This document shows positions 1,045 through 22,669 of a DNA stretch of 32,622 nt, piece by piece (position 1 is the stretch's first letter; the number at the start of each line of letters is the position of its first letter). Source of the stretch: Gemmatimonadota bacterium. GTDB lineage: Bacteria > Gemmatimonadota > Gemmatimonadetes > Gemmatimonadales > Gemmatimonadaceae. The position numbers and the translations under genes were made by a program. The notes beneath the pieces are model-generated. The model made no database searches and was not told the origin of the DNA. It saw only the letters and a program-made list of their open reading frames with translations. The DNA lies in NCBI GenBank assembly GCA_947462095.1, contig CANHNQ010000028.1:1-32622 (forward strand), in the 5' to 3' direction.

Positions 1045-1160
1045 TTTCTCTGCGACCTCTGCGACCTCTGCCGCTCTGCGTGATCAGGCACCCCGGGGTC
1101 GGCGGCGACCGTTGCTGAACCGATCACGCAGAGATGAGGAGAACACGGAGGCCACGGGGG
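1045..1160. repeat. Hairpin-forming inverted repeat with 9-bp periodic arms (element 1)
   Basis: The left arm (1045-1085) is a degenerate tandem repeat of period 9: CTCTGCGAC, CTCTGCGAC, CTCTGCCG, then CTCTGCGTGATC. The right arm (1122-1160), read on the minus strand, is CCTCCGTGT, TCTCCTCAT, CTCTGCGTGATC. The inner 12 bp, CTCTGCGTGATC (1074-1085) and GATCACGCAGAG (1122-1133), pair perfectly across a 36-nt loop that itself holds the palindrome ACCCCGGGGT. Outside the 12 bp the arms no longer match base for base but keep the same 9-bp register. There is no T-tract, so it is not a standard terminator. Element 2 at 19535-19680 shares the substring TCCGTGTTCT and the period. Function unknown. Confidence 0.7.
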
Positions 1161-16494: not shown

Positions 16495-18061
16495 GTTCAC
16501 GATGGGACCGATGCTGCTGAATCTCGTGTTGTGGCTGCCGATCGTCGGCGTGGGACTGGTGCTGCTGTTGGCGCGTGCGAACGACGGCTTGGCGCGCACG
16601 ATCAGCGCCGCCGTGATGACGGTGCAGTTCGCGCTGACCACGGTGCTGTATCTCCAGTTCGATGCGACCGCGGCGGGGCTGCAGTTCGCCACGCAGCTGC
16701 CGTGGATCGCGCAGTGGGGCGTGTCGTACCTGATCGGGCTCGATGGCTTCAACATCCTGCTCGTGCTGCTCACGGCGTTCCTGGGGCCGATCGTCGTGCT
16801 CGGCGCGTGGACATCGATCAAGAAGGACGTGCCACTCTTTCACGGCATGGTGCTGCTGCTGCAGTTCGCCATGATGGGCGCTTTCGTGGCGCAGGATCTC
16901 TTCCTGTTCTATCTGTTCTGGGAAGCGATGCTGATCCCGATGTTCCTGATCATCGGCATGTGGGGCGGCGCGCGACGCGTGTACGCCACGCTCAAGTTCG
17001 TGCTGTATACTGCGTTCGGCAGCATTCTGATGCTGGCGGCGGTGATCTACCTGGTGCACGCCATGCAGCAGAGCAGCGGCGTGCTGTCGTTCGCGTTCGC
17101 TGACCTGTATCAGACGCAACTGCCGCTGTCGGTACAGACCATCCTGCTGGGCGCCTTCGCGCTGTCGTTCGCGATCAAGGTGCCGATGGTGCCGCTGCAC
17201 ACCTGGCTCCCCGACGCGCACGTGGAAGCGCCCACCGCGGGCTCGGTCATTCTGGCCGGTGTGCTGCTCAAGATGGGCACGTACGGCTTCATGAAGCTCG
17301 GCTTCCCGCTGTTTCCCGACGCCGCGCGCGCCTTCACGCCGCTGCTGATGACGCTGGCCGTGGTCAGCATCGTGTACGGGGCGTGTCTCGCGCTCGTGCA
17401 GACCGACATCAAGAAGATCATCGCCTACTCCTCAATCAGCCATCTGGGCTACGTGATGCTCGGGTTGCTCAGCCTCGAGTTGGTGGGCATTCAGGGCGCG
17501 ATCTTCCAGATGGTGAGCCACGGACTGGTGGCGGCCGGCCTGTTCCTGCTGGTCGGCATGATCTACGATCGCTGTCACACGCGCGACCTCGCGGCGTATG
17601 GCGGCCTGGCCCGCCTGCTGCCCGTGTACTCGGTGTTCTTCATGATCTTTACGCTGGCCTCAGTGGGACTACCCACCACCAGCGGATTCACCGGTGAGTT
17701 CCTGGCGCTCATGGGCGCCTTTACGGCGGCATGGCCGGCGCATCTCGACGGGAACAACCTGCCACTGGTGCTCGCCGCGGTCGCGGTGACAGGCGTGGTG
17801 CTGGGCGCGATGTACATGCTGCGCTTCGCCCTCACCTTCCTGTTCGGCGAAGTGAAAGCGCCGCACCATTCGCCGGACCATCCGTTGCTCGACCTGTCGC
17901 TGCGGGAGAAGAGCATCCTCGGCGTGCTCACGATCGCCGTGTTCGCGCTCGGCCTCTTCCCGGACGGTGCCTTGCAGAAGACCGAACTGGCGGCGAAGTC
18001 GTACCAGTCGCTGGTGACCACGTCCCGGGCTCCTGCCGCGTCGGCGGGGGTGACGCCGTGA
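16487..18061 (+). CDS. nuoM: NADH-quinone oxidoreductase subunit M
   Basis: A 524-residue antiporter-like subunit of the membrane arm. Visible signatures: QDLFLFYLFWEAMLIPMFLIIGMWGG with the helix-5 glutamate, LPDAHVEAPTAGSVILAGVLLKMGTYG, VQTDIKKIIAYSSISHLGYVMLG, and GLPTTSGFTGEFLALMG. About fourteen helices are present, as expected. ATG at 16487 overlaps the end of nuoL by 8 bp, and the stop overlaps the nuoN GTG as GTGA. Confidence 0.95.
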   Translation: MSEFTMGPMLLNLVLWLPIVGVGLVLLLARANDGLARTISAAVMTVQFALTTVLYLQFDATAAGLQFATQLPWIAQWGVSYLIGLDGFNILLVLLTAFLGPIVVLGAWTSIKKDVPLFHGMVLLLQFAMMGAFVAQDLFLFYLFWEAMLIPMFLIIGMWGGARRVYATLKFVLYTAFGSILMLAAVIYLVHAMQQSSGVLSFAFADLYQTQLPLSVQTILLGAFALSFAIKVPMVPLHTWLPDAHVEAPTAGSVILAGVLLKMGTYGFMKLGFPLFPDAARAFTPLLMTLAVVSIVYGACLALVQTDIKKIIAYSSISHLGYVMLGLLSLELVGIQGAIFQMVSHGLVAAGLFLLVGMIYDRCHTRDLAAYGGLARLLPVYSVFFMIFTLASVGLPTTSGFTGEFLALMGAFTAAWPAHLDGNNLPLVLAAVAVTGVVLGAMYMLRFALTFLFGEVKAPHHSPDHPLLDLSLREKSILGVLTIAVFALGLFPDGALQKTELAAKSYQSLVTTSRAPAASAGVTP

Positions 18062-19455
18062 ACACCGCGATGAATACACAGGACGCGTTGATGGCGATGC
18101 TCCCCGAGCATCTCCTGCTCGGCGGCATCGTGCTGCTGATCGTGATGGCCATCCTGGGACGCGGGTCGCGGTCGGCGCTGTGGGTCGCGCTGGGCGCGGT
18201 GATCGCATCGTCGGCCGCCGCATTCTGGCTGTCGAACGCGCAGTACATGGCCGCACCGTTTGCTGGACAGTTCTCCGTCACCCCGGCGGTGCTGCTGGCC
18301 AAGGGGGCGCTGCTGGCCCTGGCCGTGCCGGTGCTGCTCATGTCGCGGACCGACTTCAGCGACGGTGAGTTCTCCATCCTGCTGCTGTCGTCGCTGTACG
18401 GGCTGTGCCTGTTGCCGTCGGCCGACAGCTTCCTCGTGATGTTCCTCGGCCTCGAACTGCTCGCGATGCCGGTGTACGCGCTCGTGCTGCTGGCCTTCCG
18501 TCGCCCGCAGAGCGCCGAAGCGGCGTTCAAGTACCTCGTGCTCAGCGGCGCCGCCTCGGCCACGTTCCTGATGGGCGTGTCGCTGCTGTACGGGGCGACC
18601 GGCTCCATGAACGTCAGTGATTTCGGACCGGCGCTGGCGTCGGGCGAGTTCATGACGCGCACGGCGGTGGTGCTGGTGCTGCTGGCACTGTTCCTCAAGG
18701 CCGCCGTGGTGCCGTTCCATGCCTGGGCGCCCGATACGTATGAGGGCGCCAGCATCCCGGTCACGGCCTACATGGCCACCCTCACCAAGGGGGCGGTGCT
18801 GCTGGCCGCGGTGCGCCTGTTCAGTGGGGCAAATGCCTCCGGGCCGCTGGTCGATCTGCTGCTGGTGCTCCCGCTGGTGTCGATCGTGTGGGGCAACCTG
18901 GCCGCGATCAAGCAGCAGAGCTTCCGTCGCATGATCGCGTATTCGTCGATCGCCCACGCCGGCTATCTGTTCTACGGGTTTCTGGGTGATGCCCAGGGAC
19001 GCCTGCAGGCCGTGCTCTTCTACGTGATCGCCTACTCCGTGGTGAACCTGCTGGCGTTCGCGGTCATGCCGCAGAACGATGCCGATGAGCAGCGCGACTC
19101 ACTCGACGCGCTCAAGGGGCTGTATCATCGCAATCCGTTCGCGGCCGTGATGATCGCCATCGCGATGCTGTCGCTGGCCGGCCTGCCGCCATTTCCGGGG
19201 TTCGCGGCCAAGTTCCTGATCTTCAAGAACGTCGTGGCGGCGGGATACACCACGTACGCCGTGCTCGGCCTCGTGGGCAGCTACCTTGGCATCTACTTCT
19301 ACCTGCGCGTGATCCAGCTGCTGTTCATGACCGCCGGTGAAGCGGCGCCGACTGAGCAGCGTGCTGGCGGTATGGCGCGCGCGGCGGGTGTGCTGTGTCT
19401 GGTGGGCACGCTGGCACTGGCCGTGCTGCCGGGGTGGGTGCTGGGCCGGATGTAG
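18058..19455 (+). CDS. nuoN: NADH-quinone oxidoreductase subunit N
   Basis: A 465-residue antiporter-like subunit, last gene of the operon. Signatures: FLGLELLAMPVYALVLLAF, PFHAWAPDTYEGASIPVTAYMATLTKGAVLL, and IKQQSFRRMIAYSSIAHAGYLFYGF. GTG at 18058 overlaps the nuoM stop (GTGA); ATG at 18070 is an alternative start four codons later. The stop at 19453-19455 is followed 23 bp later by a strong intrinsic terminator, which marks the end of the nuo transcript. Confidence 0.95.
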   Translation: MNTAMNTQDALMAMLPEHLLLGGIVLLIVMAILGRGSRSALWVALGAVIASSAAAFWLSNAQYMAAPFAGQFSVTPAVLLAKGALLALAVPVLLMSRTDFSDGEFSILLLSSLYGLCLLPSADSFLVMFLGLELLAMPVYALVLLAFRRPQSAEAAFKYLVLSGAASATFLMGVSLLYGATGSMNVSDFGPALASGEFMTRTAVVLVLLALFLKAAVVPFHAWAPDTYEGASIPVTAYMATLTKGAVLLAAVRLFSGANASGPLVDLLLVLPLVSIVWGNLAAIKQQSFRRMIAYSSIAHAGYLFYGFLGDAQGRLQAVLFYVIAYSVVNLLAFAVMPQNDADEQRDSLDALKGLYHRNPFAAVMIAIAMLSLAGLPPFPGFAAKFLIFKNVVAAGYTTYAVLGLVGSYLGIYFYLRVIQLLFMTAGEAAPTEQRAGGMARAAGVLCLVGTLALAVLPGWVLGRM

Positions 19456-19478
19456 GCGCTGGCGGTACTGTGTGATCG

Positions 19479-19512
19479 AAAGGCCAGCGCGGGGTGTGCG
19501 CTGGCCTTTTTT
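19479..19512 (+). terminator. Intrinsic terminator of the nuo operon
   Basis: A perfect 12-bp inverted repeat, AAAGGCCAGCGC / GCGCTGGCCTTT, with the 7-nt loop GGGGTGT, is followed directly by a run ending in six T. It lies 23 bp after the nuoN stop. The stem starts with A bases, so it could also stop transcripts arriving from the minus strand, though the nearest minus-strand gene ends about 200 bp away. Confidence 0.93.
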
Positions 19513-19534
19513 GTTGTGATCCGGCGAGCGTTCA

Positions 19535-19680
19535 AACAGCCAGCACACGGATCACACCGATGGACGGAACCAACACGGATAAGCAAAAGCTTGGACCGTC
19601 GGCGGGCACCATCCTTGGATGTGCACACTGCTTATCCGTGTTGTTTCGGTGTGATCCGTGTCATCCGTGTTCTGGCTGTT
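19535..19680. repeat. Long hairpin-forming inverted repeat with 9-bp periodic arms (element 2)
   Basis: The left arm (19535-19585) and right arm (19629-19680) are imperfect inverted copies of about 51 bp separated by a 43-nt loop. The outer 22 bp match with two differences (AACAGCCAGCACACGGATC against AACAGCCAGAACACGGATG), and the inner 14 bp, AACACGGATAAGCA, match perfectly. Within the arms the motif ATCCGTGTN repeats with period 9 (TGATCCGTG, TCATCCGTG). The element lies between the nuo terminator and the 3' end of the nitroreductase gene and encodes no plausible protein. It has the same design as element 1 at 1045-1160 and shares TCCGTGTTCT with it. Function unknown. Confidence 0.8.
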
Positions 19681-19715
19681 CGCGATCTTGCCAGCACGCC
19701 CCGATCAGCGACAGA

Positions 19716-20276
19716 TCAGTCGCGCCAGTGCGTCACCTCGGCCGCCGCGCGACGCGGCTTGGCCTCGGGCGTTTCCATCGGCTCACCGACCGTCAGCACA
19801 GCGATGATACGCTCGCCCTCGGGCACACCACCCGCGGCGCGCGCGGCCGGGTCGTCCATGATCGCGCCGGAACGGATGTGCGTGCCAAGTCCGATGGCGG
19901 TCGCCGCGAGACAGATGTTCTGCGTGGCCATCATCGTGGATGCATAGTCTTCTTCGCGAATTTCAGCGTTCTCGTTAAGCACCATCGCCACCAACAGCAT
20001 GCACGGCTGTGCGCGATGTTCATCGCTGGTGCTGCGACGGATCGTCTCGGCCTGCGCGTCGTCGGTGGCTTTCTTCGCCTTCCGGTTACCCAGGGCGAGA
20101 CCGTACGCCGCGCGGGCCTCAGGGCCGAGCACGTAGAAGCGCCACGGATTCGTGAGACGATGGATCGGCGCCAGGACGGCGGCCTGCAGCAGCTGCTCCA
20201 GTTCCGCCTGCGTGGGCGTGCGGTCGGTGAACTTGCGGATGGAGCGGCGGCCGGAAATGGCGTCGAAAACGTTCAT
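19716..20276 (-). CDS. Nitroreductase-family FMN oxidoreductase
   Basis: A 186-residue protein of the nitroreductase fold, which binds FMN and uses NAD(P)H to reduce nitro compounds, quinones or similar substrates in the cytosol. The N-terminal FMN-phosphate motif RRSIRKFTDR, the helix ELEQLLQAAVLAP, the segment NPWRFYVLG and the mid-protein MMATQNICLAATAIGLGTHI are typical. ATG at 20276 (MNVFDAISGRRS) is chosen because family members begin right before this motif; the ORF track start at 20357 adds 27 serine-rich residues with no counterpart. It lies downstream of the DUF5916 gene on the same strand with a 77-bp gap. The true substrate cannot be told. Confidence 0.88.
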   Translation of the reverse strand: MNVFDAISGRRSIRKFTDRTPTQAELEQLLQAAVLAPIHRLTNPWRFYVLGPEARAAYGLALGNRKAKKATDDAQAETIRRSTSDEHRAQPCMLLVAMVLNENAEIREEDYASTMMATQNICLAATAIGLGTHIRSGAIMDDPAARAAGGVPEGERIIAVLTVGEPMETPEAKPRRAAAEVTHWRD

Positions 20277-20353
20277 AATGGGCAACGAAAGAAGTGGCAT
20301 GTCTGCGAACGAGGAAGATCCGCTATCGCGGGCGCTTTCGCTATGGCTGCCGA

Positions 20354-22669
20354 TCAACCGCCCGTGCCGAACTGGCGCGTAAACTTCAGGAACACCGAGC
20401 GTTGCTGTGGTGCGCCCAGGTCGAAGAAGCTGTTCGCCGCGCGTCCGTCATTCAGCACGATGAACAATCCAGTTCCCGCTGTGTTCAGCCAGCCGAACCG
20501 CACGTTCGACGAGAAGATCGCCTGCTGATTGTTGTACTGCGTCAGCGTCTGCACGAACACGCGCGGCGTGAAGAAGTAGTTCAGGCGTACGGCTTCGAGT
20601 GAGCGAATGAAATTTCCTTGCGGCAGCCGCACGTCGTTGTAGTCGGCGGTAAACGAACCGGAGAACGTGGCACCGCGACGCACCGTGATCGTCCCACTGC
20701 CGCCGCTGCGACGGCCGGTCCAGAACTGCCCCACGTCGAAGCGGCCCGTGGCGGAAATGTTTTCGCTGGGATCGGTCGTGTAGTCCCAGCCGAACGTGCC
20801 CCAGTCATACTGACCAGCGGGGATCACCACACCGGTCGCGATCGTGAACGGCGCCTGCAGCCCTTCGTGCGAGATGTTGTATTCCGGGCCGAACTTCGTG
20901 CTGTTCGCCAGTTCGATCTCGGTGAGGTCGATGTGCCAGTAGCCCGACTGATAGAACCCGTCGTTGATGCCGTAGGCGCTGCGGTAACTCACATGCGGAT
21001 TCCACTGCCGGAACCAGGCCCACTCCGGCTTGCGCACCAGACGCATGAGCGACACGTCGTACGCACGGTAGCCACCCGGACGGCTCATGAAGCCGACTTC
21101 CGGATTGAAGTCCTCACCGATCTGCGCAATCCGTGCATTATGGTTCCACACGTTGGTCTGATACGCGATGCGCCCGCTGAAGGCGTTGGCATCGCCGGTG
21201 AGATCACGGGTCGTGGTGCGCGCCGCCCAGAGGTCGCTCGTCCAGCGCTGGCCGAGTCCGATGCGGCTGTCCACGGCGAAGGTACGGTTCACGTCGCCGC
21301 CGTCCTCCGTGGACATGCGCTGCACCACCATGGCGCCCACGCGCGATCGCGCCGAGAGCTCGCGTGTGGCGCGTCCCACCGTGAAGGACTGTCCCGAGCT
21401 CTGCGCATCGGAGGCGTCCGTGACCATCTGCAGCAAGCCGACCGTGGTGCCGCCCACGCGTCCCGACAGACGACCGCCGCCAAGAATGGGCTGTGGCGTG
21501 CCGTTGTCGGAAATGCCGATGCGGCGCGTGAAGAATAGATCGACCGCCTGCGGCGTGCCCGCCGAGAATACGCCCGCATTCTCGAGGAAGAACGGACGCT
21601 TTTCCGGGAAGAAGATCGGGAAGCGCGGGAGATTCACGCGCTGGTCATCGACCTCGACCTGCGCGAAGTCGGTATTGACCGTGAGGTCGAGCGTGAGCGC
21701 CGGCGTGACGCCGTACTTGAGTTCACCGCCGAACTCCGTGGGGCGCTTGCTCTCCTGCTTGACGCCGCTCGTCCAGCGCTCCTGCGACGACGTGAGCACA
21801 TAGGGCGTGACCGTGCGAATGCGGCGCACCGGCAGCGTGAGGTTGGACAGATTCCCGGCGATCGACAGGCGGTACAGGTTGAACTGCCGCGGAATGAAGG
21901 CCCAATACAGCTCCTCGTTCTTGCGACGGATGTTGCGCGAGACGTTCATGCCCCACGTCTGCTCGGCGCTGCCAGACTGATAGCGCAGCGTCGAGAACGG
22001 GATGCGGAACTCCGCCGTCCACCCGAGTGAGTCGACCGTGGTGGACACCGTCCAGCTGGCGTCCCAGTTCACGTTGAAGCCGCCCATGCCGCCGGCCTGC
22101 ATGCGGTTCTGGCCGGCCACCTGTGCGCCTCCGCCCTCGCCTTCACGAATCACCTGCCCGTCGTACTCCACACCGGCGGGCGTCGTGGCGAACACGAAGC
22201 CGTTTTGGTTGTCGTGGTACGTGTCGAACACGAAGGCGATGTGATCACTGTTGGCCAGCTGCACGTCGCGGATTTTTTCGCCGGGCACGATCAGATGCGG
22301 CTCGCGGTCATACATGCGCGCGCCGATATAGAGGTTCACGCCATCGGTGGCCAGTCGCACTTCCGTGCGCTCGGAGGCGGGGACGCCCTCGTTGAGCTCG
22401 CGCTGCACGAAATCACGGATCGGCGTGCCCTGCGACCACATCGCTTCATCGAGCTTGCCGTCGATCGTGGGCGCCGTCGTCACGCGCAGCGTGCTGAACG
22501 ACGGGCGGGGACGGGCGCGGGCCGCGCGGGCAAACGAATCGGCCACGGCGGCATCGAGGCGCACCGGAGTTCCCGCCGGCGGCGTGACCTGCGCGTACGC
22601 CGTCGTGGCGGTCGCGACGAGGGTGATGGCCGTGACGAGAGCCATCACGGTTTCGGACGTACGAAGCAT
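20354..22669 (-). CDS. DUF5916 outer-membrane protein with CBM9-like N-terminal domain
   Basis: A protein of about 771 residues with a signal peptide (MLRTSETVMALVTAITLVA ... TAYAQ). After it comes a CBM9-like beta-sandwich domain (APTIDGKLDEAMWSQGTPI, about residues 60-250, ending WTAEFRIPFSTLRY), followed by a long beta-rich region typical of DUF5916 (EKRPFFLENAGVF, NPEVGFMSRPGGYRAYD) that probably forms an outer-membrane barrel. Proteins of this kind are numerous in Gemmatimonadota, Acidobacteria and Bacteroidota; the role is unknown, possibly surface binding or uptake of saccharides or peptides. ATG at 22669 is chosen; the track start at 22699 (GTG) has no ribosome site, and ATG at 22645 is also possible. 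It is divergent from the hydroxy-acid dehydrogenase gene. Confidence 0.87.
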   Translation of the reverse strand: MLRTSETVMALVTAITLVATATTAYAQVTPPAGTPVRLDAAVADSFARAARARPRPSFSTLRVTTAPTIDGKLDEAMWSQGTPIRDFVQRELNEGVPASERTEVRLATDGVNLYIGARMYDREPHLIVPGEKIRDVQLANSDHIAFVFDTYHDNQNGFVFATTPAGVEYDGQVIREGEGGGAQVAGQNRMQAGGMGGFNVNWDASWTVSTTVDSLGWTAEFRIPFSTLRYQSGSAEQTWGMNVSRNIRRKNEELYWAFIPRQFNLYRLSIAGNLSNLTLPVRRIRTVTPYVLTSSQERWTSGVKQESKRPTEFGGELKYGVTPALTLDLTVNTDFAQVEVDDQRVNLPRFPIFFPEKRPFFLENAGVFSAGTPQAVDLFFTRRIGISDNGTPQPILGGGRLSGRVGGTTVGLLQMVTDASDAQSSGQSFTVGRATRELSARSRVGAMVVQRMSTEDGGDVNRTFAVDSRIGLGQRWTSDLWAARTTTRDLTGDANAFSGRIAYQTNVWNHNARIAQIGEDFNPEVGFMSRPGGYRAYDVSLMRLVRKPEWAWFRQWNPHVSYRSAYGINDGFYQSGYWHIDLTEIELANSTKFGPEYNISHEGLQAPFTIATGVVIPAGQYDWGTFGWDYTTDPSENISATGRFDVGQFWTGRRSGGSGTITVRRGATFSGSFTADYNDVRLPQGNFIRSLEAVRLNYFFTPRVFVQTLTQYNNQQAIFSSNVRFGWLNTAGTGLFIVLNDGRAANSFFDLGAPQQRSVFLKFTRQFGTGG

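Follow-up and report, generated by a model that had tools for sequence, protein, structure and literature searches.

The palindromic element described here lies between the intrinsic terminator of a nuo operon and a convergent nitroreductase-family gene, in agreement with the first-pass annotation of this DNA, which had placed it after the nuo terminator. The features of the window (the whole stretch of 32,622 nucleotides that was analysed) are as follows.

1045..1160, no strand: element 1, a periodic hairpin of the CTCTGCG type, with polarity opposite to that of element 2 (the element at 19534..19681)
18058..19455, + strand: nuoN-like gene (Proton_antipo_M), left neighbour, start uncertain
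19478..19510, + strand: intrinsic terminator of the nuo operon, separate from the element and upstream of it
19534..19681, no strand: whole palindromic element, matched by the R1 model on both strands
19535..19585, + strand: left arm, AACAGCCAGC ACACGGATC ACACCGATG GACGGAACC AACACGGAT AAGC
19535..19540, + strand: outer end motif AACAGC, common to several word types at orthologous gaps
19586..19628, no strand: loop, a long variant; many family copies have a short AAAAGCGCTTTT centre instead
19629..19680, + strand: right arm, GCTTATCCGTGTTG TT TCGGTGTG ATCCGTGTC ATCCGTGTT CTGGCTGTT
19675..19680, + strand: outer end motif GCTGTT, the inverse of AACAGC
19716..20357, - strand: nitroreductase-family gene, convergent right neighbour, start uncertain

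The arms of about 51 bp were said to pair with few differences, and they do, with a complementarity of 89% over 27 nt and 91% over 22 nt; some 43 nt separate them, close to the loop of about 40 nt first estimated. The element has a minimum free energy of -87.1 kcal/mol (z -5.85, RNA), and 0 of 200 shuffles fold equally well. Its right arm, which can be read as ATCCGTGTT.. TTCGGTGTG ATCCGTGTC ATCCGTGTT, has a lag-9 self-match of 0.58 (p < 5e-5), and lag 9 is the clear maximum across 15 family copies (self-match 0.46), but the left arm alone gives a weak 0.41 (p = 0.08), so the period of 9 ascribed to both arms is strong in the right arm, weak in the left arm by itself and clear over the family. 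Likewise, the 9-nt phase is strict in the outer part of the element, but the innermost unit is shifted by 2 nt.

The window element belongs to a dispersed family of non-coding intergenic palindromes, and as an observation this is real. The genome that carries it is a MAG of the genus Gemmatimonas, 82% complete, in which copies were counted with search tools. A count of phased units, as suggested in the first-pass annotation, was made with ATCCGTGTNATCCGTGT (at most 2 mismatches) and returned 43 matches, whereas the reversed word returned none. With a covariance model, about 28 copies are recognised (56 matches over the two strands), and an alignment of 15 copies yields a consensus of 118 bp, CAACAGCCAGAACACGGATnnCACnGATnnCACGGAAACAACACGGATAAGC-loop-GCTTATCCGTGTTGTTTCCGTGTnATCCGTGnnATCCGTGTTCTGGCTGTTG. 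The arms of the family are made of 9-nt words, NACACGGAT in the 5' arm and ATCCGTGTN in the 3' arm, its ends in the genus read AACAGC...GCTGTT, and the loops vary from copy to copy. Covariation between paired bases of the arms exceeds that obtained with slid partners or with shuffled letters (none of 500 shuffles scores as high), and two-sided pair changes are in excess. Outside the 9-mers, 10 of 23 copies carry mirror-oriented hexamer arrays, GCAACA on the left and TGTTGC on the right, and these hexamers are 134-fold enriched beside elements; together with the 9-mer arms, this outer layer makes the element a nested palindrome with two periods.

Every Gemmatimonas copy examined falls between called genes, the calls coming from a simple codon-usage gene finder written for this analysis, and a coding origin of these copies is thus not supported. 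Among 22 classifiable sites, including that of the window copy, 10 are convergent, 11 tandem and 1 divergent, which is an enrichment between convergent genes (10/22 element sites versus 15/95 remaining gaps in the same regions, Fisher p 0.004). In two complete congeners, copies gather within 0.4 Mb of dnaA (14 of 29 in G041, 4.5 expected, p 3e-5; 9 of 22 in G020, 3.8 expected, p 0.008). Scanned de novo for hairpins, two samples of 400 kb gave few long ones, one of them of the element kind, in G020; two intergenic long hairpins of another kind, near 1,102,620 and 1,347,619 of C1 in the same genome, both contain TACCTGCAGGAT. The convergent bias, the clustering near dnaA and the excess of two-sided pair changes would also be expected of an element selected by the host for its structure. 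Such an element could be a bidirectional hairpin that stabilizes or terminates mRNA 3' ends, or an array to which a topoisomerase or nucleoid protein binds, and it would be retained at the ends of genes and around the origin. We consider such a role unlikely: a U-tract or T run was sought at the window element and none was found, the separate terminator of the nuo operon being the only one there, G042, with only 8 copies, shows no clustering at the origin, and many relatives have no matches to the periodic pattern.

Comparison between species bears on the same question. The covariance model matches 23 of the 25 same-genus genomes searched (own genome counted), but gave no match in the 16 genomes searched that belong to the order but to other genera. 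At homologous gaps, whose comparison had been proposed from the sequence alone, the element is present or absent as a unit, with clean empty sites, G024 having them at two gaps; thus the gaps do not show gradual divergence only, and other copies exist. An element lies 3' of nuoN in G000, G016, G019, G023, G024 and G045, with most of its right arm deleted in G024 and only its left arm present in G045, and in the same place G014 and G041 carry a palindrome of the CCGCGGAT type. In G019, the element and about 50 bp of its flank stand in tandem at this gap, with two full units and the start of a third visible. A palindrome persists here in eight species, both arms differing together in word type, which would suit selection by the host and resembles a long-settled copy more than an element still on the move. 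On the other side of that argument, most of the distant congeners have no such element 3' of nuoN, where another gene comes next, and the clean empty sites also speak against a structure kept by the host; these empty sites could themselves be deletions, which would be a point against mobility. Four further gaps compared across eight congeners gave a mix of clean empty sites, shared copies and other word types in the same gap. For example, G041 has a CTTCGCG word type at site 1 and another ACACGGAT variant at site 2, and a GGGAACACGGATTCAAAAAG.. word type occurs in G041/G024 at site 3. At this third site, G014 and G011 have a periodic palindrome on ACTCACGTGAG / GAGTTGAAGTTCGGAGT where their sisters have the ACACGGAT type. 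The paired outer ends AACAGC...GCTGTT are common to several word types, local decay through arm deletion is seen in the family, and one word type may give way to another either because a new copy inserts or because both arms are rewritten. A possible target duplication, CGTAA, is seen at site 1 in G000 against a single copy in the empty G024, but not in G023 or G016. Copies at about 28 sites in one genome, carriage by nearly all genus members searched and several types at orthologous gaps agree with the dispersed family of several sequence types that the first-pass annotation had proposed.

The same annotation had described element 1 as sharing the design of element 2 with a different core word. 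The core word indeed differs, element 1 being another word type, but the common design holds just loosely and comes down to kinship of word class, because element 1 carries CTCTGCG in its left arm and is thus inside-out relative to element 2; its hairpin is also far weaker (z -1.98) than that at 19534-19681. The inner GTGATC..GATCAC of element 1 is the outer end in a CTCTGCG element of G041, and element 1 may be a junction of two elements.

Across Gemmatimonadota, matches to a degenerate pattern of three units were found in 62 of the 249 genomes, and their number per genome ranges from 0 to 286 within one family, the reversed control being near zero with few exceptions that have other repeats. 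Reversed-control matches are many in G215 (66+78) and G112 (23+31), which points to another 9-nt-periodic repeat in these two genomes. The dominant word per listed genome is ATTCGCG, CTCTGTG, CTCCGTG or CTTCGTG, and the neighbouring pairs listed mostly have the polarity CRCRRAK-loop-MTYYGYG, reversed in G252 and in element 1 of the window.

An early impression that similar words recur between genes in other phyla is borne out, the same words being found in many phyla and in archaea. The exact 24-letter core ATCCGTGTNATCCGTGTNATCCGTGT, scanned in 84,980 species genomes (257 Gb, where about 0.002 matches are estimated by chance), occurs in at least 117 stretches from about 18 phyla by record title, including Bacteroidota, Planctomycetota, Verrucomicrobiota, Chloroflexota, Desulfobacterota, Pseudomonadota, Acidobacteriota, Bacillota and Actinomycetota, as well as Spirochaetota, Chlamydiota, Hydrogenedentota, Poribacteria, Caldithrix, Ignavibacteria and Gemmatimonadota, and, among archaea, Methanoperedens, Methanolobus and Nanoarchaeota. 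An inverted partner lies within 350 bp at 58 of the 117 loci listed (0 in shuffles), upstream in 54 and downstream in 4, that is, with one polarity, and the end types ..GTTCTA, ..GTCTA and ..GTGGTTA recur; some matches in other phyla consist of one arm only, and 38 of the 117 stretches listed overlap an ORF of 100 aa or more. The 36-nt arm ACACGGATGACACGGATYGGACGGATTTACACGGAT is found, with one variable base, in the Bacteroidota isolate Pinibacter soli and in the MAG of an uncultured archaeon, near-identical arms occur in Methylobacter, Ca. Methanoperedens and Ignavibacteriaceae, and the arm seen in Gemmatimonas is a variant of this one that also has its odd third unit, GGACGGA. Single taxon labels may be wrong, since many records are MAGs, and the gene content flanking two archaeal records, scanned as a check of their domain label, did not settle it; a wholesale artefact is unlikely given the isolates and the repeated end motifs. 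Plasmids and E. coli, searched with consensus forms, gave no match, and in phages the type-B form was matched in part, for the most part by faecal phage contigs that carry no annotation. The ATCCGTGT core was found in one stretch of viral contigs; a CTCTGCG-type core, unlike it, was found in 20 stretches of viral contigs (IMG/VR), possibly as proviral flanks or real phage carriage. With these counts, phages are no obvious main carrier.

The cross-phylum arms bear on a second alternative, in which the palindromes would be home-grown: short hairpins would expand in situ as units of 6 and 9 nt slip and as template switching corrects one arm against the other, with no mobility at all. Periodic and nested arms, tandem growth at the nuoN site of G019, loops that differ among copies and types that differ at a fixed place are all what such a process would leave; it does not explain why unrelated phyla have identical arms of 24 to 36 letters, or why one genome has some 28 similar copies at sites unrelated to each other, and we hold it to be improbable, somewhat more so than selection by the host. 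Our preference, held with moderate confidence, is for a mobile repeat family of the hairpin type, non-autonomous and similar to REP/BIME or MITE elements, of which mobility, a recognising enzyme and horizontal spread are the parts that we infer. It draws on the many copies, their unit-wise presence or absence and the different types at the same gap, on the patchy, species-specific amplification, the cross-phylum identity and the 54:4 polarity, and on the intergenic, convergent-enriched sites, the outer hexamer layer and the covariation of the arms. Copies of such a mobile family would arise when a single strand that forms a hairpin is inserted, or when the hairpin is copied via template switching, with an enzyme acting in trans that would recognise the fold and its 9-nt-spaced words. 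They would survive where harm is small, chiefly downstream of stop codons and in gaps that separate convergent genes. Each genome would amplify its own word variant, so that word types would differ between species, and the family would also move between lineages, which would account for equal arms in different phyla.

The co-occurring transposase suggested in the first-pass annotation was looked for in the own genome, near elements and at Y1 loci, and none was found. It is very improbable that these are REP elements of a RAYT/IS200-like Y1 transposase, a reading to which intergenic palindromes of species-specific sequence and the presence of some Y1 gene in 28 of 32 cross-phylum host genomes would lend themselves. 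The own genome (82% complete) has 0 Y1 (PF01797) genes, Y1 is present in 3/15 element-rich versus 2/19 element-free Gemmatimonadota, 12 of the 15 element-rich ones, the complete G041 among them, being without it, 9-mers lie within about 1.5 kb of only 1 of 30 Y1 loci checked, and arms of 51 bp far exceed REP length. No recurrent transposase-like gene lies within 3.5 kb of the 117 cross-phylum loci listed (the largest cluster covers 6/117), and no long "parent" element was found at these loci. Y1 presence, the flank tests, the lack of a recurrent transposase-like neighbour and the plasmid, E. coli and viral searches all disfavour RAYT, and membership in REP/RAYT fails.

A bolder possibility, put forward tentatively and with less assurance than mobility as such, is that the family represents an undescribed class of hairpins, with 9-nt-periodic arms of mostly fixed polarity, spreading in Bacteria and Archaea by its own non-Y1/RAYT machinery, with its own word variant amplified in each genome and an origin-proximal convergent bias. 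The family is unannotated: Rfam gave 0 matches above the gathering score for the window and five cross-phylum loci, and the literature searched by word and concept holds no description of the words, papers with a searched word being unrelated. RepRanger (PMC12306157) is without Gemmatimonas, and where CGGAT/ATCCG matches in it, the match is to consensus strings of E. coli REPs. Provided that the family is what this description makes it, with 24-36 letter identity across distant phyla and archaea and up to hundreds of matches per genome, it would be either a mobile element of unusually broad range or a trace left by some process of DNA handling that many lineages share, and what makes or moves intergenic palindromes in bacteria without RAYTs would become directly testable.

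Among known systems, intrinsic terminators also place a strong hairpin between convergent genes, but the window element has no U-tract, the dispersed copies have a common sequence and the terminator of the nuo operon stands just upstream. REP/BIME elements with RAYT (TnpA-REP) are likewise short, intergenic, palindromic and multi-copy, with species-specific words and mostly 3' of genes, whereas the present family has much longer arms and a 9-nt internal period, most of its Gemmatimonadota carriers have no Y1 and its elements do not flank Y1 genes. REPs are about 20-40 nt long and conserve a GTAG/GGAG tetranucleotide at the base of the hairpin, and the consensus of about 118 nt has no such base motif. 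In the BrickBuilt MITE of Porphyromonas gingivalis, the tandem unit is 23 nt long and the terminal repeats are IS-like (PMC4596501). The family differs from BrickBuilt in having a 9-nt unit in both arms, with no parent IS and no firm target duplication found, but MITEs such as this one are likewise non-coding, multi-copy inverted repeats with internal tandem units, and the family shares with MITEs its terminal inverted repeats, non-coding nature and dispersed copies.
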